Assembly (NCBI GenBank): GCA_947464185.1
Contig: CANHVY010000006.1
Span: 1-64,000, forward strand
Source of the DNA: Burkholderiales bacterium
Lineage (GTDB): Bacteria; Pseudomonadota; Gammaproteobacteria; Burkholderiales; Burkholderiaceae_C
Length of the DNA: 64,000 nt
Direction of reading: 5' to 3'
The notes under the pieces were generated by a model. That model was given only the letters and a program-made list of their open reading frames with translations, made no database searches and was not told the origin of the DNA. Positions 20,113-31,808 of this stretch are shown here, piece by piece. The number at the start of each line of letters is the position of its first letter. The first letter of the stretch is position 1. The position numbers and the translations under genes are program-made.

Positions 20113-20881
20113 AGATGGTGTGAAGGACGGTTCGAGCCTTTGGCGGCGCGCTGGGCTGCACGTGGCATTCGTTGCGGTGCTGCTGGGCCTTGGGGAACTG
20201 GCCGCCGAACGACGTTGGCTGGACCCCACCTTCTTCGGCCAACCCAGCGGCGTGGCGAAGTTCCTGTGGCTCAACGCGACGTCCGCCAAGCTGTGGACAG
20301 ACCTGGGCTGGACCATGGCCGGCGTGGTGTCCTCCTTCGCACTGGGCAGCACGGCCGCCTTCGCGGTGGGGCTGGCTTTCGTGCGTTGGCCTTCGCTGGA
20401 GCGCTTCGCTGAACCCTACTTCAGCGCGCTGAATGTCATGCCTCGCATCGCGCTGGCGCCCCTGTTCATCCTCTGGTTCGGGCTGGGCCTGGGCAGCAAG
20501 ATCGCCGTGGGGTTTTCTCTGACCTTCTTTATCGTCTTGTCGGCCACGGTGGCGGGCATCAGAGGTGTGAGTCCCGACCACGTGACGCTGTGCCGCACTT
20601 TGGGAGCGCGTGCCACCACCACCTTCTTCCAGGTCACGCTGCCGGGCGCCGTACCGGTTATCTTCTCGGGCCTGCGCCTGGGCCTGATCTATGCGCTGCT
20701 GGGTGTCATTGGCGCGGAAATCATCGCCAGCGAGAAGGGCCTGGGCCAGTGGCTGGCTTATCTCAGTTCCACCTTTGACGTCAACGGCGTCATGGCCCTG
20801 CTGCTCGTTCTGGCATTGCTGGGCGTGGCGATCGTGCGGCTGATGACATGGCTTGAGAAGCGGCTGCTGCACTGGCAGTGA
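20102..20881 (+). CDS. ABC transporter permease (NitT/TauT family)
   Basis: Multiple TM segments; TLGARATTTFFQVTLPGAVPVIFSGLRLGLIYALLGVIGAEIIAS (EAA-like loop). Confidence 0.92.
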   Translation: MRAEDGVKDGSSLWRRAGLHVAFVAVLLGLGELAAERRWLDPTFFGQPSGVAKFLWLNATSAKLWTDLGWTMAGVVSSFALGSTAAFAVGLAFVRWPSLERFAEPYFSALNVMPRIALAPLFILWFGLGLGSKIAVGFSLTFFIVLSATVAGIRGVSPDHVTLCRTLGARATTTFFQVTLPGAVPVIFSGLRLGLIYALLGVIGAEIIASEKGLGQWLAYLSSTFDVNGVMALLLVLALLGVAIVRLMTWLEKRLLHWQ

Positions 20882-20894
20882 GAGGGCAATTCGC

Positions 20895-21863
20895 ATGAAA
20901 TTCAGACACATCCAGGTAGATCCAGTCACACCTTGCATTGGCGCCCACCTCACAGGGGTAGACCTCAATGCCGTGCGCAATGACGACGTCTACGAGGAGA
21001 TCCAGCAGGCGCTGTGGCAGCACGGGGTCATCTTCCTGCGCGGCCAGGCGCTGAAGCCGGAGAACTACCTGCGGCTCGGTCGCAAGTTCGGCGAGATGGA
21101 GGAGCACGAGTTCTTCCCTCATCTCCAGAACTTCCCTCAGATCCAGCTCATCGCGCATGAGGGCCATGAGGCGCCGGAAACCGATCGCTGGCACACCGAC
21201 GTCACCTTTCGCAAGAAGCCCAACCTGGTGTCCATGTTGCGCATCACGGACATGCCACCCGCAGGAGGTGACACGATGTGGATGAGCGCAGGAGCAGCCT
21301 TCGACGCGCTGGGCGCACCTCTGCAACAACTGTTGCTGAGCCTCCAGGCCGAGCATGATCTGCCCTGGCACTTCCGCCGCATCAATGCTTACGAGCGGCT
21401 GGCCAAGAAGCAGGCAGACGCCGCTCTCAAGGCTGGGCATCTGGCGCCTGCGAAGCCGAGCGTCGAGGCCTTGGCTGCAGCGCTTGCCGAGCGCGAAGCC
21501 AAGATGATCAAGGACAACCCGACTGCCGTGCACCCTGCGGTCATCTCGCATCCGGTCACAGGCCGCAAGACCCTGTTCGTGAACAGCATCTGGACCAAGC
21601 GCCTGCTGGGTCTTCACATGGACCTGTCCGAATCTCTGCTGAACATGCTCTTCGAATGGATCAAGAAGCCCGAGTTCACGGTTCGCTTCCGCTGGGAGAA
21701 GGACTCCATCGCGATCTGGGACAACGCAGCGACGCAGCATTACGCCGTGTTCGACTACGCGCCGCACTACCGTGCCGGTCAACGTCTCACCTGTGGCAGC
21801 TTCACGCCTGCGCTGCAGGCTGCACCCGCTCCGAGGCGAAAGGGACAACGCAACGCCGATTAG
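20895..21863 (+). CDS. TauD/TfdA-family 2OG-dependent dioxygenase
   Basis: ETDRWHTDVTFRKKPNLVSML (HTD); ATQHYAVFDYAPHYRAGQR C-terminal His/Arg. Confidence 0.92.
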   Translation: MKFRHIQVDPVTPCIGAHLTGVDLNAVRNDDVYEEIQQALWQHGVIFLRGQALKPENYLRLGRKFGEMEEHEFFPHLQNFPQIQLIAHEGHEAPETDRWHTDVTFRKKPNLVSMLRITDMPPAGGDTMWMSAGAAFDALGAPLQQLLLSLQAEHDLPWHFRRINAYERLAKKQADAALKAGHLAPAKPSVEALAAALAEREAKMIKDNPTAVHPAVISHPVTGRKTLFVNSIWTKRLLGLHMDLSESLLNMLFEWIKKPEFTVRFRWEKDSIAIWDNAATQHYAVFDYAPHYRAGQRLTCGSFTPALQAAPAPRRKGQRNAD

Positions 21864-22001: not shown

Positions 22002-23180
22002 ATGGAGTTCTTCATGCCCGGCTTGCTTCCCCACGTTGACCCTGATGGCCTGCTCGAATACTCGGTGGTCTACACCGACCGTGCGGTCAACCACATGTCG
22101 AAGAAATTCCAGCGCACCATGTGCGCGATCTCCGGCATCCTGAAAGAGGCGTACGGCGCCCGTTCGGCCATCGTGGTGCCAGGCAGCGGCAGTTTCGGCA
22201 TGGAGGCCGTGGCGCGCCAGTTCGCACACGACCAGCACGTGCTGGTGCTGCGCAACGGCTGGTTCAGCTTCCGCTGGTCGCAGGTGTTCGACGCCGGGCG
22301 CATCCCTTCCTCGTGCACCGTCCTCAAAGCGCGGCGCCAGCGTCCCGGGCCGCGCGAGCCGTTTGCCCCGGCCCCGCTGGACGAGGTGTTGCAGACCATC
22401 CGCAAGGAGAAACCCGCCGTGGTGTTCGCGCCGCATGTCGAGACATCGGCCGGCCTGATCCTGCCCGACGCCTATCTGCGTGCCGTGGCTGACGCAGTGC
22501 ATGAGGTGGGTGGGCTGTTCGTCCTGGACTGCATCGCTTCCGGCGCCATCTGGGTAGACATGAAGGCCTGCGGCGTGGACGTGCTGGTCAGCGCCCCGCA
22601 AAAGGGCTGGAGCGGCTCGCCCTGCTGCGCCTTCGTGATGCTGTCTGACCTGGCGCGTGAGCGCATCGACGGCACCACGAATTCCAGCTTCGCGCTGGAC
22701 TTGAAGAAGTGGCTGCAGGTCATGGAGATCTACGAGGGCGGTGGCCACGTCTACCACACCACCATGCCCACCGACGCGCTGGAGGCCACCCGCAAGGCGA
22801 TGGAAGAGACGCGCGAACGCGGATTCGAACGGCTGCGCCAGCAGCAGTGGGAACTGGGCGAGGCCGTGCGCACGCTGATGCAGCGTCACGGCTACCCCAG
22901 CGTGGCCGCAGACGGCTTCCGCGCCCCGGGCGTGGTGGTCAGCTACACCGACGACGCCGATATGCAAAGCAGCAAGGCCTTCCTCGGCCTGGGCCTGCAG
23001 ACCGCCTCGGGCGTGCCGCTGCAGTGTGACGAAGGCGCCGATTTCCGCACCTTCCGCATCGGCCTGTTCGGCCTGGACAAGCTGGGCCAGACCGAGCGGG
23101 CTGTGAAGCCGCTGGAGCAGGCGCTGCAGGCCATTGCGCAGGTACGCGCCGAGGCTGTTACGCCGGCCAAGGCGGCCTGA
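22002..23180 (+). CDS. Class V aminotransferase (serine/alanine-glyoxylate type)
   Basis: VVPGSGSFGMEAVARQF; FVLDCIASGAIWVDMKACGVDVLVSAPQKGWSG (PLP Lys). Confidence 0.9.
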   Translation: MEFFMPGLLPHVDPDGLLEYSVVYTDRAVNHMSKKFQRTMCAISGILKEAYGARSAIVVPGSGSFGMEAVARQFAHDQHVLVLRNGWFSFRWSQVFDAGRIPSSCTVLKARRQRPGPREPFAPAPLDEVLQTIRKEKPAVVFAPHVETSAGLILPDAYLRAVADAVHEVGGLFVLDCIASGAIWVDMKACGVDVLVSAPQKGWSGSPCCAFVMLSDLARERIDGTTNSSFALDLKKWLQVMEIYEGGGHVYHTTMPTDALEATRKAMEETRERGFERLRQQQWELGEAVRTLMQRHGYPSVAADGFRAPGVVVSYTDDADMQSSKAFLGLGLQTASGVPLQCDEGADFRTFRIGLFGLDKLGQTERAVKPLEQALQAIAQVRAEAVTPAKAA

Positions 23181-23265: not shown

Positions 23266-23949
23266 TCACACAGGCCAGCGGCGGATGTCGATGCACCGGT
23301 ACCCCAACTCGACCATGCCCTGGGTCTGGAGACGCTTCAAGGCTTGATTGACTCGCTGGCGCGAGGCGTCCACTGCACGGGACAGATCTTCCTGTGTCAG
23401 AAGCAGCCTCACTCGGCCCTCGGGCAAAGGTTCGCCGTTGCGTTGGGCAAAGTGTTGCAAGGCGGTCAGAAGACGGTCATCCAGGCGCAGTTGCGATCGT
23501 GCGGCCAGCAGGTCCACCGCCTCGCTCAGGCGAGCGCTCAAGAACCGTGCCGCGGCGATCCCCGCCTCGGCGTCGCTGCGCAGCACTTCCAGCACCACCT
23601 CGCGTCCGATCCACAGGGCCTGGCTGTCGCCGCTGGAAATCAGGTCCATCTGAAATGGCGATTCCGTCAGTACGGTGGCCATACCCACGGCCTCGCCCGA
23701 CTCGACCCAGCGGAGGAAGTGTTCCTCTCCATTCGCACCGCCCGTCACCGCCCGCAGGCGCCCGCGCTGCAACACCAGCAGGCCCGAAACGGGCTGCCCG
23801 CGGAGCATGAGCAAGGCACCATCAGGGTACTGCCGCACGCTGCCTTTGCGACGCAAGGCCTGAGCAGCGGATGCGGGCAGCATCTCCCAGAAGTCCACCC
23901 GAAAGGGTGATGTGGGCACCTTGGGAATAGCAATGGGATTGAAATTCAC
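23266..23949 (-). CDS. Crp/Fnr-family transcriptional regulator (copy 2)
   Basis: Closely similar to copy 1 (RGQPVSGLLVLQRGRLRAVTGGANGEEHFLRWVESGEAVG). GTG start in the position equivalent to copy 1. Confidence 0.88.
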   Translation of the reverse strand: MNFNPIAIPKVPTSPFRVDFWEMLPASAAQALRRKGSVRQYPDGALLMLRGQPVSGLLVLQRGRLRAVTGGANGEEHFLRWVESGEAVGMATVLTESPFQMDLISSGDSQALWIGREVVLEVLRSDAEAGIAAARFLSARLSEAVDLLAARSQLRLDDRLLTALQHFAQRNGEPLPEGRVRLLLTQEDLSRAVDASRQRVNQALKRLQTQGMVELGYRCIDIRRWPV

Positions 23950-23954
23950 CTGAA

Positions 23955-23976
23955 GATTGTCACCTACGCAGCAATC
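23955..23976. promoter_or_regulatory. Candidate Crp-family operator GATTGTCACCTACGCAGCAATC
   Basis: Same inverted repeat, same distance to regulator start and to downstream ATG as copy 1. Confidence 0.6.
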
Positions 23977-24052
23977 TTTTTTGCCCTCACGCCATGTAAT
24001 GTGCCTGCTGGCCCGATGGCCAAGTGCTGGTAACCCGACGAGAGGATGACCC

Positions 24053-24376
24053 ATGTTCAAGACCATTGCGTCGGAGCCGCAGGGCCTTCACCTGACCCTG
24101 TCAGAGGCGCTGCTGAACATGCGGGTCGAGGGGATCAAGAAGCTGGAGTTCGCGGTGCGCTTCCGCTGGGAAGGGGATGCTATCGCCAGCTGGCACCACA
24201 CCGCTGCGCAGCACCACACCGTGTTCGACTTTGCGCCGCATCACCGCGCCGGCCAGCGTCTGCCCTGCGGCAGCTTCACCCCCACCCGGGTACCAGCGCC
24301 TGCGACGCGCCAAACGCGGCGCTCAGGCCACGCTGCCTCATGGCCGCCTGTTCGGCGGCGGGTCGTGCGGGCATGA
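24053..24376 (+). pseudogene. Fusion remnant: start of ABC binding-protein gene joined to the C-terminal part of a tauD-like gene
   Basis: MFKTIASEPQ start resembles MIKTVRLAG. Then GLHLTLSEALLNM...VRFRWEGDAIASWHHTAAQHHTVFDFAPHHRAGQRLPCGSFTP parallels the C-terminus of the 20895 TauD. Confidence 0.8.
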
Positions 24377-25416
24377 ACAAGACAGATCCACAGGGCACGG
24401 GAAGTGCCGAGTCATCGTCAAGCCCCCCGGAGGCCGAACAGGGCCTGGGACCCGCGCTACCCAAGGTCGCCTTCGTCGATGACGACCCCGATCTGCTGGA
24501 CGGCCTGCGGCGGAGCCTGCGCCGGCTGAACCTGGGTTGGTCTGTGTCCTTCTACCGGGACCCCGGCGTGGCGCTGGCGGCGCTACGAGAGGCTCCGGTC
24601 GACGTTGTGGTGCTGGACATCCGCATGCCCGATATGAATGGAGTCACGCTGGCGGGCAGGCTGGCCAGGACGTGTCCGCAGACCCTGTCCATCGTGCTTT
24701 CCGGCTCGACGGACTTCGATGTCGCTATCTCGTCGATCAACGTCGGCCGCATCTTCCGCTACCTGATCAAGCCTTGCCCGACGCCGACACTGGTGTCGGC
24801 CGTGAAGGCCGCCTTGGACAGCCGGTCCGCTGCTGCTTCCTCCACCGACCAGGCGGTCTCCGCGAAGGCCGCGATCGACCTGCTGAAGTCCGGGGTCATC
24901 GTCCTGGGGCCCCGGGGGCAGGTGCTGTTCACGAACCAGCGCGCTGGCAGCCTGCTGTCCTGGCGCGACGGTCTCACCGTCGACAACTCAGGCGTCTGCC
25001 GGGCCTCCGACACCGAGGACACCCGTCGCCTGCACCAGGCCGTGCGGGCCGCCCGCGACAAGGGCCTGTCTGATGCACTGACGCTGCAGTCCCGACAGCA
25101 TGGGCCGCTGCGCATCGTCGTTCGCCCAGGTGAGGACGAAGGAAACGCAGGGCCGGTGACCTGCCTGTACCTGTTCGCCGAGGATGACGATCCCGCCATC
25201 GACCCTCACCTGCTGCGCGGCATGTTCGGCCTGACGCCCTCGGAAAGCAGGCTGGCGGCGGCGCTTGCCAGCGGCCTGTCCCTCGAGGCCACGGCCGAAC
25301 GTGAAGCCTGGACGCTGAGTTCGGCGCGCAGCTATCTGAAGACCGTGTTTGGCAAGGTCGGTGTATCGCGTCAGGCCGATCTGGTGCGGGTTGTGTTGAG
25401 AAACACCGGCCAATAG
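24373..25416 (+). CDS. Response regulator: REC, central PAS-like region, C-terminal LuxR-type HTH
   Basis: VAFVDDDPDLLDGL, VVVLDIRMPDMNG, FRYLIKPC; LTPSESRLAAALASGLSLEATAEREAWTLSSARSYLKTVFGKVGVSRQADLVRVVL. Confidence 0.85.
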   Translation: MNKTDPQGTGSAESSSSPPEAEQGLGPALPKVAFVDDDPDLLDGLRRSLRRLNLGWSVSFYRDPGVALAALREAPVDVVVLDIRMPDMNGVTLAGRLARTCPQTLSIVLSGSTDFDVAISSINVGRIFRYLIKPCPTPTLVSAVKAALDSRSAAASSTDQAVSAKAAIDLLKSGVIVLGPRGQVLFTNQRAGSLLSWRDGLTVDNSGVCRASDTEDTRRLHQAVRAARDKGLSDALTLQSRQHGPLRIVVRPGEDEGNAGPVTCLYLFAEDDDPAIDPHLLRGMFGLTPSESRLAAALASGLSLEATAEREAWTLSSARSYLKTVFGKVGVSRQADLVRVVLRNTGQ

Positions 25417-25457
25417 CCGCGCTTGAGCAAGCCCGGCGACGGACCGTCGCGACCGTG

Positions 25458-28400
25458 CTACGCCGAGACGGGCAGGCTCACGGTGAAGCGTCCGCCGCCC
25501 AGCGGCGAGTCGCCCACCCAGATTTCCCCACCGTGCTGCTCGACGATGCCGCGGCAGATGTCCAGCCCTCTGCCCGTGCCCTTGCCGACATCCTTGGTCG
25601 TGAAGTAGCGGTCGAAAATGCGGCTTCGCAGGGCCTGCGGGACGCCAGGGCCGTTGTCGTCGACATGCACCACCACCGCGCCCGATTCCACGCCCAGGCT
25701 GATGCGCACGACGCCCCTGCGGCCATCGGACGCGGTCCTGACCGCGTCGCAGGCATTGGTCGTCAGGTTGACGAACACCTGGCTGATTTGTCCGGGGCTG
25801 CCTCGAAGCACCGGAATCGCGCGCTCACCGTGTAGCGAGACGTCGATGTCGTGCTTCCAGTTCCCTCGCGTGACGACCAGGCAGTGCTCCAGCACGGTGC
25901 GCAGGTCGATGCGCTCGTCGGGCGCCAGTTCCGGGTAGGCCGTGGTGCGGACCGCCTCCACGATTTCGGCCACCCTCCGACTGCCGTTCAGTGACTGCTC
26001 AAGCGCAAGCGGTATCTCCTTGAGCAGAAACTCCAGGTCCGCGTCGGCCGCCTGCCGTGCTGAACCGGCGCCACCCTGGCGCTGCAGTGCGGAGATCAGT
26101 TCGGCGAACGAATCCCTCAGGAAATGCAGGTTGTCGCTGATGTACTGCATTGGCGTGTTGATCTCGTGCGCGATGCCTCCTGCCAGCGCGCCCAGGGCCT
26201 CGAACTTCTGTGCCTGCTGCAGGTCCTGTTCGAGCTTGCGTGCCCTCAGTGCGTCGTCGCGCCTGCGCAGGGCTTCCGCGATCAGCGGGGCAAAGCGCTG
26301 GAACAGCAGCGCCTTGCTCGGGTCCAGGACCTTCGCCACAGTGCCCGCCGCCACCAGCAGGTAGGCGCCGCCCCTGGGTTCGACGCGTGCCGTGGCCAGC
26401 CAATGCAGCCGGGCGGAAGGCCACTGGTCGACCAGATGGCTGTAGACCGGCACAGCCGACAGGTCGCCCACCAGCCGGTGCAATCTCCCGGCCAGGTGGT
26501 TGACGAGTGCCCTGTCCTGACGGAAGTCCTCCCACCAGGCCGGGTGCCCGAGGCACTGCAGATCCTGCCGTTCATCCAGCGGCAGCAAGGCGATGCAGTC
26601 TGTCTCCATGGCCTGGGCCAGTTGCTCCAGCAGGTGGATCGGGCCGTCGGCCAGGTCCTGCGTCTCGCTGAAGCTGCGCAGGGCTTCCACCAGCAATTCG
26701 CTGGCCAGTCGCATCTGCCGGTCGCGCTCGTGCAGCCTCTGCATCTCCAGCAACGCACCGGCAAGCTTGGCCTCTGACGCCACCTGCTGCTGCACCACCG
26801 CATCCTGGATATGGCGACGTTCCTTCTCCTGTCGCAGCTTCTCGGTTGCCTCGTGACGCGCGACCTCCAGCTTCGCTCGGCCGCGCAGGTTGCGGGAGAT
26901 GTCGGAGAAGAAGCCAAGCAGCTTCTCCTCGCGGGGCGTGTAGTGGTATTTCCTGCTCAACGAATGGAAGCCCAGGAACCCTTCGCAGCCTTCAGCCCCG
27001 ATGAGGGGTATCGCCACCAGGCTCTTGACGCCATCAGGGTCCAGGAGCTTGCGCAGTCCGTCGGCGGCGGGCAGCGCCTCCACGCTCGGGATGCTCACGA
27101 TGCGGTTGGCCCGGTGGGCGTTCACCCACTCAGTCAGGTTGGCCAGCGGCACAGCCTGGCTCCTGTGGCGCCGCAGAGCGGTGCCGTCGGCGTACCAGTC
27201 GTGCGTGTTGCAGGCCGTGAAAGCATCCCAGTCATAGGAGTAGATGTAGGCTCGGTCCGCCTCCATGTAGCTGCCGAGCTGGCCCAGGGCTTCCACGATC
27301 GCGGTATCGACCTGTTCCACCGGGGTGTTGAGGTAGCGCGATGCAATGCCCATCAGCAGATCGAGCAACGAGGTCTCCGCCTCGAGATTCTTCTTGAGTT
27401 CGCCCACATCGCGCGTGATCAGCACCACTGCCCGGTCTGGTGTCCTGGTCAGCGATGCCTCCTGGTAGGAGATAGGCGCCCGTGAACCCACCGCTCGCAG
27501 ATACCCGCGCCAGCGGCCCAGATCCTCCAGGCTGGCATGCGCCTCCAGCGCGACGGCTTCTCGGTCGGCCGGTGGGCAGATCTGCCACCACTCCCGGCCG
27601 ATCCAGGCCCCGGGGTGGTCTGCGCCGAACGACCGGATGAAGGCCGAGTTCACGTAGGTCAGCCGTCCGTCGGCATCGGCCATGGCGATGGCGTCCTGGG
27701 AGGCGTCCATGGCGGCCACCCTGTGCCAGACCGCCTGCTGTTCGGCCCGCTTGAGCTGCGTGATGTCGCTTCTCAGGGCGATGAAACCGCCCTGGGAAGT
27801 GCGCAGCTTCACGCTTCGCACCCAGCGGCCGTCAGCGAGCTCCAACTCCGCGGACCACCTCCCTTGCGCCTCCAGCATCGCCAGCCTTTCGGCCAGCCAG
27901 ACCTCCTCCTGGCCCTTGGCCTGCGGATACTCACCCCGCAGAAGCTCTTCCCTCATCAGAGCTTGCAGCGTGACTCCAGGCAGCATGTCGGCCACCAGGG
28001 GGTGCAGGTCGAGATAGGCCCGGTTGTGCAACATGAGCGGCCCGTCTGGGCTGAACATGGCGAACCCATCAGGCAAGGCCTGGACGGCGGCCTGCAGCAT
28101 GGCGCTGGCCGCCTCGGCCTGGGCGGCAAGGTCCTTCAGCCCCTGCGCCTGGCGCCTTTCTTCCGTGATGTCGGTCTGGACCGCGACGTATCCGTCGAGA
28201 AGGCCTTCAGCCGTCAAGACAGGTTGAATGTCCAGGTGCAGCCAGTACTCCCGGCCCGACTTGCTGCGATTCAGGATCTCGGCCCGGACCGGCCGCCGGG
28301 CGCTCAGGCCGGCGCGGATGCTGTCGATGGTTGCGGGGTCCGTGCCCTCGAACTGCAGCAGTTCTCCGGGCCGCCGCCCCATCACCTCCTGCAGCGTGTA

Positions 28401-28934
28401 GCCCGAGGTGCGCGTGAAGGCTTCGTTCACCCACTCGATGCGCTGCCTGGCGTCCGTGACGACGACGAGATTCGACGTCCGCCGGGCCACCTGCGCCAGG
28501 CGGTCCAGCATGCGCGTGTTGCGGACGTCGGCGCTGGCATCGCGCACCATCACGCAATAGCCCTCGGGCCTGTCCTGCCCGCCACTCCAGCGGGGACAGA
28601 CCCGCAGTTCCATCAGGCAGCCCTCGTCCCCGGCACCGCCCTCCAGCATGCGCTGGGCAGGCCGGCCACTTCTCATGCAATCGCGCAGGGCCTCCCCTGC
28701 CGCGAGCCGGAACCCGGGCCGCAGATGCAGGTCCAACTCAGCCCCCGGCTCCAGCGCGAGCGTGCTGCCCAGTTCGTCCAGCAGGTGAAGGTCACCGGAA
28801 CAGCTGCCCGTCAGCTTGCCCCGGTCATCGAGGTCGATGACCAGCGTGCCCCCAGTGGACGCAGGCAAGGGCGGCGTCACCAAGGATTCCTGGGGCCAGC
28901 CCGGGCGACCCGCCTGCACCACTTGCCTGCTCAA
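25458..28934 (-). CDS. Multi-PAS, GAF-containing hybrid-type sensor histidine kinase (1158 aa, no REC seen)
   Basis: Several PAS blocks (e.g. VVTDARQRIEWVNEAFTRTSGYTLQEVMGR), GAF, then LGALAGGIAHEINTPMQYISDNL and VHVDDNGPGVPQ..GKGTGRGLDICRGIV. TTG start overlaps the FIST stop (TTGA). Confidence 0.9.
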   Translation of the reverse strand: MSRQVVQAGRPGWPQESLVTPPLPASTGGTLVIDLDDRGKLTGSCSGDLHLLDELGSTLALEPGAELDLHLRPGFRLAAGEALRDCMRSGRPAQRMLEGGAGDEGCLMELRVCPRWSGGQDRPEGYCVMVRDASADVRNTRMLDRLAQVARRTSNLVVVTDARQRIEWVNEAFTRTSGYTLQEVMGRRPGELLQFEGTDPATIDSIRAGLSARRPVRAEILNRSKSGREYWLHLDIQPVLTAEGLLDGYVAVQTDITEERRQAQGLKDLAAQAEAASAMLQAAVQALPDGFAMFSPDGPLMLHNRAYLDLHPLVADMLPGVTLQALMREELLRGEYPQAKGQEEVWLAERLAMLEAQGRWSAELELADGRWVRSVKLRTSQGGFIALRSDITQLKRAEQQAVWHRVAAMDASQDAIAMADADGRLTYVNSAFIRSFGADHPGAWIGREWWQICPPADREAVALEAHASLEDLGRWRGYLRAVGSRAPISYQEASLTRTPDRAVVLITRDVGELKKNLEAETSLLDLLMGIASRYLNTPVEQVDTAIVEALGQLGSYMEADRAYIYSYDWDAFTACNTHDWYADGTALRRHRSQAVPLANLTEWVNAHRANRIVSIPSVEALPAADGLRKLLDPDGVKSLVAIPLIGAEGCEGFLGFHSLSRKYHYTPREEKLLGFFSDISRNLRGRAKLEVARHEATEKLRQEKERRHIQDAVVQQQVASEAKLAGALLEMQRLHERDRQMRLASELLVEALRSFSETQDLADGPIHLLEQLAQAMETDCIALLPLDERQDLQCLGHPAWWEDFRQDRALVNHLAGRLHRLVGDLSAVPVYSHLVDQWPSARLHWLATARVEPRGGAYLLVAAGTVAKVLDPSKALLFQRFAPLIAEALRRRDDALRARKLEQDLQQAQKFEALGALAGGIAHEINTPMQYISDNLHFLRDSFAELISALQRQGGAGSARQAADADLEFLLKEIPLALEQSLNGSRRVAEIVEAVRTTAYPELAPDERIDLRTVLEHCLVVTRGNWKHDIDVSLHGERAIPVLRGSPGQISQVFVNLTTNACDAVRTASDGRRGVVRISLGVESGAVVVHVDDNGPGVPQALRSRIFDRYFTTKDVGKGTGRGLDICRGIVEQHGGEIWVGDSPLGGGRFTVSLPVSA

Positions 28935-30127
28935 CGCCCGAACACGATGGAGGAAATCATCAGGTTGCCGTGTTGCACCGGCCCCTGCGACATCACGCCC
29001 TGCTCGCCGAAGGTGAAGCCCACCACCATGGGAACGCCGGGGGCCGTGCGCTTCAGAGTGGCCTGAATCTCGTCGAGCCGGTCACGCACCTGCAGCATGC
29101 AGCCGCCGCAGTAGTACATCACCATCGCCTTGATCTGGGCGGGGTCGAGGTCGGCGTACCGGCTGGCCGAGCGCAGGACGCTGCTCGCCCGATTGACCAG
29201 CGTCCCGGTCGTGCCCTTCATGAACACTAGTTCGTCACCCACCGCGACGCGCGTGAACAGTGTCAGCGAGCCATCGGCGCAGATGTTCTCCGGGTGCGAC
29301 AGGGTATAGACGGGCATGTCCCTCAGGGCCCCGACCTGCCGGCCCAGCGGTGTCAGCGCCGAGGCCATCAGGATGTTGATACTGCCAGTGGTGGGCCGGC
29401 GGATTGAACCCTCAGTCCAGCGCTCGAAGACATCGGCCGCGGGCTTTCCTTCGATCTCCAGGATGCGCCGGCCCTCGGCGCGGGTGATCACACCGCGCTG
29501 CTCTGAAGGAGCGTAGGCGCTCTCGAATGCGGCGTAGACGCCCACGCTGGGAAACAGCACGCTCACCATGGCCCCGGCGGCCCGGGGCTCGTCACCGTCC
29601 AGGATGCGCCAGCTGCCGCTGATGTCATTGTCTGCGGCCGAACCTCCGATGATGGGTGTCTCCACCCCGACCACGGACTTCACGCCGGCCAGGAAGTCCT
29701 CTTCGTCGCCCGGTGTGGCACAGACGAGCACCAGTGCCGGAATCTCGCCAGGGCGCCCTGCATCCTGCAGCGCGCGTTGCGCCAGGTGCCTGCCCACGGA
29801 TTCAGACCCCTCCGACAGCTCGCCCGCGGCCAGCCCGTAGTCGCCAGAGGAATCGCTGATGGCCAGCAGAGCCAGGCCCCCGTCAGGCGCCATCGCGACG
29901 AGGGCGTCGGTCATGCCGCCCAGGCAGGACGTTGCCGCGTGCAGGCGCACTCCCGGCCAGCGTTCCCGGAGGACGCGGCCGATCTCCTGGAGCGACAGAA
30001 CGCAGTTGGCGTGCACCACAACGAAATCGGCCCTGGAGATACCGGCTGCCGTAACCTGCGCCACGCATTCGGTCGCTGCGGACGTTGCGTTGGTTTGCGT
30101 GGAGCACGCGCTTGCTGCCTTGAACAT
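28931..30127 (-). CDS. FIST-domain sensor protein
   Basis: ~398 aa. GVRLHAATSCLGGMTD, IIGGSAADN, GVPMVVGFTFGEQGVM typical of FIST N/C domains. Start 2 bp after the REC-EAL stop. Confidence 0.85.
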   Translation of the reverse strand: MFKAASACSTQTNATSAATECVAQVTAAGISRADFVVVHANCVLSLQEIGRVLRERWPGVRLHAATSCLGGMTDALVAMAPDGGLALLAISDSSGDYGLAAGELSEGSESVGRHLAQRALQDAGRPGEIPALVLVCATPGDEEDFLAGVKSVVGVETPIIGGSAADNDISGSWRILDGDEPRAAGAMVSVLFPSVGVYAAFESAYAPSEQRGVITRAEGRRILEIEGKPAADVFERWTEGSIRRPTTGSINILMASALTPLGRQVGALRDMPVYTLSHPENICADGSLTLFTRVAVGDELVFMKGTTGTLVNRASSVLRSASRYADLDPAQIKAMVMYYCGGCMLQVRDRLDEIQATLKRTAPGVPMVVGFTFGEQGVMSQGPVQHGNLMISSIVFGR

Positions 30128-30129
30128 GT

Positions 30130-31353
30130 TCACATACCTCCTGCCGGCTGGCCACACTGCCAGGCGAGCGCATCGAATCTGCCATGCGTTGAAAGACATT
30201 GCTTCAACAGTTGCTGCACCGTCAGGCCCGGCGCGAAGAGAAAGCCCTGGAACTGGTGGACCCCCAGCCCGTGGAGCAGCGAGGCCTGCGTGAGCGTCTC
30301 GACGCCTTCGGCCACGACCTCCAGATGAAGTGCTCGCGAGAGATCGACGATGGAGCGCACGATCTCGCGGTGCCTGGCGTTGTGCACCACGTCGGCAACG
30401 AAGGACCGGTCGATCTTCAGCATGTCGACATCGAGCTGCCTGAGCAACTCCAGCGAGGCATGGCCCGTACCAAAGTCGTCCAGCGCGGTGCGCGCACCCA
30501 AGCCCTGAAGGGCGCTCAGCAGGTCCCGCGCCGGTTCCGTCTGCTCCAGCTTGTGGCTTTCAGTGATCTCAACCTCCAGGCGATTCAGGGGCATGCCGGA
30601 CCCGGCGATGGTCGAGCGTATGTCGCCCATCAGGTCATAGGTGCCGATGCTGGCAGCGGAGACGTTGACCGAAATCGACAGCTCGGCCCCCCCGTCCTTC
30701 AGCGTCCGCCATGCTCTGCCGGTCTCACGCAGCACCCAGCGGGTGATGCCGTCAATCAACCCCATGGCTTCGGCCACGGGAATGAATTCGGCCGGCGGCA
30801 CCGGGCCACGCCGGGGGTGGTGCCAGCGCAGCAGCGCTTCGGTAGCCACCAGCCGCCCGTCTGTTGCATCGATGCGCGGCTGCAGCAGCAGCCTGAACTG
30901 CGCGTCATGATCCGCATCTGCCAGTTCGGCGGCGATCCACTGCTGCCTCGGGTTCAGCGGTACCGCATGCCGCGCGGCGGCGGCCTTGGCGCTGCCGATC
31001 GCCTTGCGCAGGACCTGCTGCAACTCCGCCGCGGGCGTAGGCTTCTGCAGGAAGGCGATGACGCCGGCACGGTTGATGGCCTCCATCAGGGCTGACCGGT
31101 CTCCATGGCCGCTCAACATCACCCGTGGGATAGCCGGCGCAATCTGGCGCGCACGCTCCAGCAGCGTCACCCCGTCCATGGCGCTCATGGCCAGATCGCT
31201 GACGATCGCGGCGTAGCGCTCACCCCCGGCCAGACGGCGCAACGCCTCGTGGGCGCAGGAAACCGGATCGATGGTGAAGTAGCGGCCCAGTGCGCGGCGG
31301 ATGCCATCGAGCACTTGCAGTTCATCGTCGACGATCAGTATGCGGTCCATCAA
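30130..31353 (-). CDS. REC-EAL response regulator (predicted c-di-GMP phosphodiesterase)
   Basis: REC: RILIVDDELQVLDG, AIVSDLAMSAMDG. EAL: ATEALLRWHHP, VEITES, TALDDFGTGHASL, DMLKIDRSFV, VAEGVET. Confidence 0.92.
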   Translation of the reverse strand: MMDRILIVDDELQVLDGIRRALGRYFTIDPVSCAHEALRRLAGGERYAAIVSDLAMSAMDGVTLLERARQIAPAIPRVMLSGHGDRSALMEAINRAGVIAFLQKPTPAAELQQVLRKAIGSAKAAAARHAVPLNPRQQWIAAELADADHDAQFRLLLQPRIDATDGRLVATEALLRWHHPRRGPVPPAEFIPVAEAMGLIDGITRWVLRETGRAWRTLKDGGAELSISVNVSAASIGTYDLMGDIRSTIAGSGMPLNRLEVEITESHKLEQTEPARDLLSALQGLGARTALDDFGTGHASLELLRQLDVDMLKIDRSFVADVVHNARHREIVRSIVDLSRALHLEVVAEGVETLTQASLLHGLGVHQFQGFLFAPGLTVQQLLKQCLSTHGRFDALAWQCGQPAGGM

Positions 31354-31555: not shown

Positions 31556-31720
31556 GCCCTGGGCCTGCAGACCGCCTCAGACGCACCGCTGCAGAGCGAC
31601 GAAGGCGCCGACTTCCGCACCTTCCGCATCGGCCTGTTCGGCCTGGACAAGCTGGGCCAGACCGAGCGGGCCTTCAAGCCGCAGGAGCAGGCGCTGGGCA
31701 CGATTGCGCAAGGCCGGTGA
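31556..31720 (+). pseudogene. C-terminal fragment of a class V aminotransferase
   Basis: [52 protein letters not shown]. 59 bp (31613-31671) identical to 23043-23101. Confidence 0.9.
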
Positions 31721-31808
31721 CCGGCATCGCGGCCAGCAATGGCAGCTTGAACCAGCAAGCAGCCACCAGACTGGAGGCCTGCATCGCCCTTGTTACCAAC
31801 AAGGTCAA

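Follow-up and report, generated by a model that had tools for sequence, protein, structure and literature searches.

We analysed a 64,000-nucleotide stretch of DNA from a Burkholderiales bacterium (the window; positions 1 to 64,000 of contig CANHVY010000006.1, assembly GCA_947464185.1), in which four signalling genes lie close together. Three of them are arranged as an operon that encodes, in this order, a REC-EAL response regulator, a FIST protein and a histidine kinase with a PAS-PAS-PAS-GAF array, while the fourth gene is convergent and encodes a response regulator with a putative helix-turn-helix output (REC-HTH). Coordinates and Pfam domains bear out the layout described in an initial annotation made from the sequence alone: 2 bp separate REC-EAL from FIST, and the stop codon of FIST overlaps the start of the kinase as TTGA. 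The stop codons of the kinase and REC-HTH genes are convergent and 41 bp apart. Features of the locus are collected in Table 1.

Table 1. Features of the four-gene cassette, of the kinase domains and of the flanking gene remnants (window coordinates).
Feature	Position	Strand	Basis
REC-EAL response regulator, predicted cyclic di-GMP (c-di-GMP) phosphodiesterase, 407 aa	30130..31353	-	Pfam Response_reg + EAL 5.7e-63
FIST protein, non-NosP subfamily, 398 aa, M1 at 30127	28931..30127	-	Pfam FIST + FIST_C
Histidine kinase, 1158 aa, TTG start, PAS-PAS-PAS-GAF-(predicted FIST-partner GAF)-DHp-HATPase, without receiver domain	25458..28934	-	Pfam + partner-domain model
Kinase: three PAS regions, aa ~154-261, 286-399, 407-457	27564..28475	-	Pfam
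Kinase: GAF domain recognised by Pfam, aa 548-678	26901..27293	-	Pfam
Kinase: FIST-partner domain, aa 717-906, coiled coil + GAF-like fold, directly before the DHp helix	26217..26786	-	Model from 13 other partners, AlphaFold
Kinase: DHp/HisKA region, H-box GGIAHEINTP, phospho-acceptor His923, phosphatase-type HExxT motif	26076..26195	-	Pfam (weak) + sequence
Kinase: HATPase_c catalytic domain, aa 1047-1156	25467..25796	-	Pfam 1.3e-23
Convergent response regulator: REC, weak PAS-like segment, divergent LuxR-like helix-turn-helix, 347 aa	24373..25416	+	Pfam Response_reg
Degenerate C-terminal copy of tauD-like gene, one side of the cassette	24083..24313	+	66% identity to the intact copy, aa 253-329
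Degenerate C-terminal copy of aminotransferase gene, other side of the cassette	31559..31747	+	79% identity to the intact copy, aa 330-392

We looked at the genes that follow members of the FIST subfamily to which the window protein belongs. In all members examined, the next gene encodes a kinase, a hybrid kinase or a GGDEF-EAL protein, and the N-termini of these partners have in common a coiled coil that leads into a GAF-like domain. A hidden Markov model (HMM) of this partner domain was built from 13 FIST partners, leaving out the window kinase and its two orthologs (L004, from a Rubrivivax metagenome-assembled genome (MAG), and L005, from a Rhodocyclaceae MAG). Results showed a match of 58.5 bits to the window kinase at residues 717-906, compared to 6.7 for the best of 2000 shuffled kinases, and a model from which the five nearest homologs had been removed still gave 24.3 bits versus 7.6 for the shuffles. 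Pfam has no match in these residues; homologs of the segment score as GAF or GAF_2, and its AlphaFold model matches GAF structures. Judging from these models, residues 717-906 are a predicted GAF-type domain that Pfam misses, internal in the window kinase and placed after the three PAS domains and the other GAF. No description of this partner domain was found in the literature that we searched, most subscription journals being outside its coverage, and its novelty is provisional.

The pairing of the domain with the FIST subfamily was examined in 399 Burkholderiales genomes. All 8 genomes with the subfamily, and none besides, gave matches of 153-212 bits, each adjoining the FIST gene, and nothing above about 36 bits was found in the other 391 (strong matches in 8/8 versus 0/391). 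As four of the eight FIST genomes were represented in the HMM, a second, out-of-sample test was made with a model built from Burkholderiales sequences only, which was searched against a sample of the class. The five other FIST genomes of this sample were the top five matches (74 to 24.5 bits, followed by 20.1), and each match again adjoined FIST. On the contrary, the HMM from 13 partners had no match in the kinase of a real NosP, nor in a GGDEF-EAL protein whose gene adjoins a different FIST in the window genome. A candidate for a lone FIST (G469/L032) was rejected, its next gene being a GAF hybrid kinase.

FIST and partner distances are correlated (r=0.87; 0 of 20,000 permutations). A stronger argument for a link between the two is that the partner domain stays constant among proteins that differ in output, domain position and type of kinase, from hybrid kinases and plain kinases to GGDEF-EAL proteins. 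The step from FIST to the kinase, which the initial annotation had proposed as a modulation of the kinase by FIST, is therefore the part that genomics supports well: the subfamily is always paired with one GAF-type domain, which in the window kinase is predicted to stand directly before the DHp helix.

The FIST protein itself scores above the Pfam cut-offs for FIST and FIST_C, and its AlphaFold model (predicted local distance difference test, pLDDT, 80.9) has the three-repeat fold of FBXO22, whose FIST domain is the best structural match (PDB 8ua6, 8ua3; E=6.1e-10). FBXO22 shares this fold but is a eukaryotic ubiquitin-ligase substrate receptor, about 12-13% identical to the window protein. 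The next structural matches are cyanuric acid hydrolases, whose likeness to FBXO22 has been described (PMC11185555). Sequence searches found no solved relative, whether a single sequence or a profile was used. Alignment of 14 subfamily members revealed as invariant H278-P279, C340, C343, F371-T-F-G-E-Q-G377 and H386-G-N-L-M-I-S392, with E375, H386 and M390 among them and the two cysteines forming a C340-x-x-C343 motif.

Two further FIST proteins of other subfamilies are encoded in the window genome (L026, contig C15:7702-8718, and L027, C66:3755-4297); one of the genes adjoins a PAS-GGDEF-EAL protein and the other a PAS-HisKA_3 kinase. We also noticed that a member of the window FIST subfamily, with a hybrid kinase, is carried by a 4.9-Mb record of Aeromonas caviae (L068, NZ_AP026896.1), which is filed as a plasmid but has the size of a chromosome and is probably a mislabelled one.

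The invariant residues leave it possible, if short of probable, that the window FIST senses through its cysteines, together with E375, and responds to redox state, a metal or an electrophile instead of to nitric oxide (NO) through haem. All 14 aligned members of the subfamily have C340, C343, E375, H278 and H386. Moreover, human FBXO22, whose FIST domain the fold matches, works by protein binding with no haem described, and its reactive C326 with the adjacent E362 binds aldehydes (PMC13316043). This parallel has its weak side, as C326 is presumed to correspond to C340, and the invariant cysteines could also be structural, or haem ligands. We would extend the idea tentatively, and with some doubt, to the whole non-NosP subfamily, which may signal through its cysteines, and not through haem and NO, to a GAF domain that serves as its dedicated "receiver" and has been incorporated in kinases, hybrid kinases and GGDEF-EAL enzymes; in the window cassette, such a signal would branch, one arm leading to c-di-GMP and the other to transcription.

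It is unlikely that the cassette is instead a NosP-type switch, in which FIST would bind haem and sense NO, and the NO-bound protein would alter kinase activity and hence c-di-GMP turnover. The kinds and order of genes are those of nosR-nosP-nosK in Burkholderia (PMC12570481) and resemble a FIST/kinase/GGDEF-EAL system of Legionella (PMC8846402), both receivers of the cassette match the NosR-family model over their REC part, and a Cys and a His of real NosPs align with C343 and H386. However, the window FIST reaches 41.8 bits with the NosP model NF041558 of NCBIfam, whose curated equivalog cut-off is 450 bits, and its membership in NosP is thereby ruled out. It is 23% and 21% identical to two Burkholderiales NosPs found with this model (L035, at 451.5 bits, and L036, just under the cut-off at 432.5), the subfamily motifs differ, and the histidine of the NosP "QHF" motif has no counterpart. 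In addition, no NO-metabolism gene was recognised adjoining the cassette. The initial annotation had read the cassette as a candidate gas-sensing switch by comparison with NosP systems. Its gene context stands, with a FIST_N + FIST_C protein encoded beside a kinase and a c-di-GMP enzyme, but the NosP identity does not; considering also that FIST proteins with no described haem exist, as FBXO22, a haem/NO label for the window FIST would be an extrapolation by analogy.

We also followed the cassette as a unit in other genomes. Both L004 (90-96% identity) and L005 (55-65%) have these four genes with order and orientation unchanged, the orthologs being 92% and 57-58% identical for REC-EAL, 96% and 55% for the kinase, and 90% and 65% for REC-HTH, which stands at the same place in both. 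The genes flanking the cassette in L005 differ from those in the window, and because the arrangement is kept at 55-65% identity in this unrelated context, it is not due to chance. The L005 kinase (L005:9213-12113) has no Pfam-recognised equivalent of the GAF at residues 548-678 and retains the cryptic FIST-partner GAF. Relative to L004, all four genes have ratios of nonsynonymous to synonymous substitution rates (dN/dS) of about 0.23-0.25, corresponding to purifying selection. The FIST subfamily is sporadic: sampled at the level of order, class and family, it occurs in 8/399, 6/369 and 3/301 genomes, respectively (window genome counted), and this therefore suggests that the cassette may have spread horizontally.

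The degenerate copies that bracket the cassette keep the orientation of the intact tauD-like (20853-21863) and aminotransferase (22002-23180) genes nearby, and they look as if a diverged duplicate of this gene pair had lost its middle to the cassette. The bracketing is also present in L004, and both copies are missing in L005. A Crp-like gene adjoining the cassette (23266-24066) has a dN/dS of about 0.9 relative to L004, calculated on few changes, compared to 0.08-0.25 for its neighbours. In the congeners searched, this gene had no clear ortholog and only the fasciclin gene aligned, hence no clean empty site was found. Base composition of the cassette was not distinct from its surroundings, the convergent gap folded no better than its shuffles, and scans for promoters (1 match versus a shuffle mean of 0.5) and terminators (5 versus 3.4) were uninformative.

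Concerning the outputs, the EAL motifs that had looked canonical at first sight (EALLRW, N, ExTE, DDFGTG, KIDRSF, AEGVE and QG) are indeed conserved on alignment with the MorA EAL structure 4rni. The convergent gene had been annotated as REC-LuxR, and here the receiver is confirmed (Response_reg 4e-18, with the acidic pair and the D, S and K residues present in the alignment), while the LuxR-type HTH is divergent, with no Pfam match in the window protein and a GerE match in the L005 ortholog (E=0.014, 15.4 bits) that stays under the cut-off of 23.5. Receiver and HTH are separated by a weak PAS-like segment. In the alpha-1 helix of the receivers, the two regulators of the window read LDGIRR and LDGLRR and those of L005 both read LAGLRR, giving at the variable residue D/D versus A/A. 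This match within each genome is a small observation, of the kind expected if one kinase recognises both regulators, and it is plausible that the kinase, which both regulators accompany in the three genomes, acts on both. That REC-HTH is rather a neighbour served by another kinase, with a system of three co-directional genes only, is improbable: it does lie on the opposite strand, with an HTH too divergent for Pfam, but it keeps its place in L005 despite the different flanks and is under purifying selection, neither 24 congeners nor 16 other genomes hold a close relative of it, and its alpha-1 residue goes with that of REC-EAL.

Altogether, we are fairly confident that FIST docks on the cryptic GAF and tunes a kinase that drives REC-EAL and very probably REC-HTH, within a horizontally spread cassette. 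The soluble FIST protein would most likely bind the GAF directly before the DHp helix of the co-encoded kinase, and its docking would set the balance between autophosphorylation and phosphatase activity at the adjacent DHp, with the three PAS domains and the second GAF acting as possible further inputs. The kinase would then phosphorylate or dephosphorylate REC-EAL, presumably an active phosphodiesterase reached by phosphotransfer, and so change c-di-GMP hydrolysis; it would very probably also act on the convergent REC-HTH and change transcription. The control could be of either sign, as the effect of NO is reversed from one NosP system to another (PMC12570481).

Several points weigh against FIST docking on the kinase as proposed here. 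The reading rests on genomics, and the partner domain of the window is 11-30% identical to those outside L004 and L005. The genome searches scored in full the best 8-9 candidates per genome, and the correlation between FIST and partner distances could arise from linked inheritance alone. Moreover, the HisKA match of the kinase (16.3 bits) is under the Pfam cut-off of 26.9, and the convergent response regulator is not co-transcribed with the kinase and has a divergent HTH.

How the signal passes from FIST proteins to their partners is poorly known (PMC8846402). Since one FIST subfamily is always found with the same GAF-type domain, regardless of output, this domain is a candidate for the docking site, and FIST signalling could be put to the test with two small fragments in purified form. 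A further lesson is that not each FIST that adjoins a kinase should be called an NO sensor. Operons that combine FIST, a kinase and a c-di-GMP response regulator are already known; what is new here is the FIST subfamily, its GAF partner domain, obligate in the genomes sampled and provisionally new, and a four-gene cassette with a second, transcriptional output.

Among known systems, the closest in gene order is nosR-nosP-nosK of Burkholderia pseudomallei and B. thailandensis, in which NosP binds NosK and one operon also joins a FIST protein, an HExxN/T histidine kinase and a c-di-GMP-type response regulator (PMC12570481). There, the output of the response regulator is a degenerate HD-GYP, whereas in the window it is an intact EAL; the window FIST belongs to another subfamily, and a second, REC-HTH regulator is added. 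The operon of the NosRPK pathway thus has its counterpart in the window, but NosK has no recognised sensory domain, unlike the window kinase with its own array of three PAS, a GAF and the cryptic partner GAF. NosP-NahK-NarR of Legionella pneumophila (PMC8846402) likewise combines a FIST auxiliary protein, a kinase and an EAL-bearing response regulator; its sensor is a NosP, NarR is a GGDEF-EAL response regulator, and a convergent transcriptional regulator is not described there. Finally, in HnoX-HnoK-HnoB of Shewanella oneidensis (PMC8846402) the stand-alone sensor is an H-NOX (HNOB) protein and not a FIST, but it similarly tunes a kinase and, through it, a receiver-linked phosphodiesterase.

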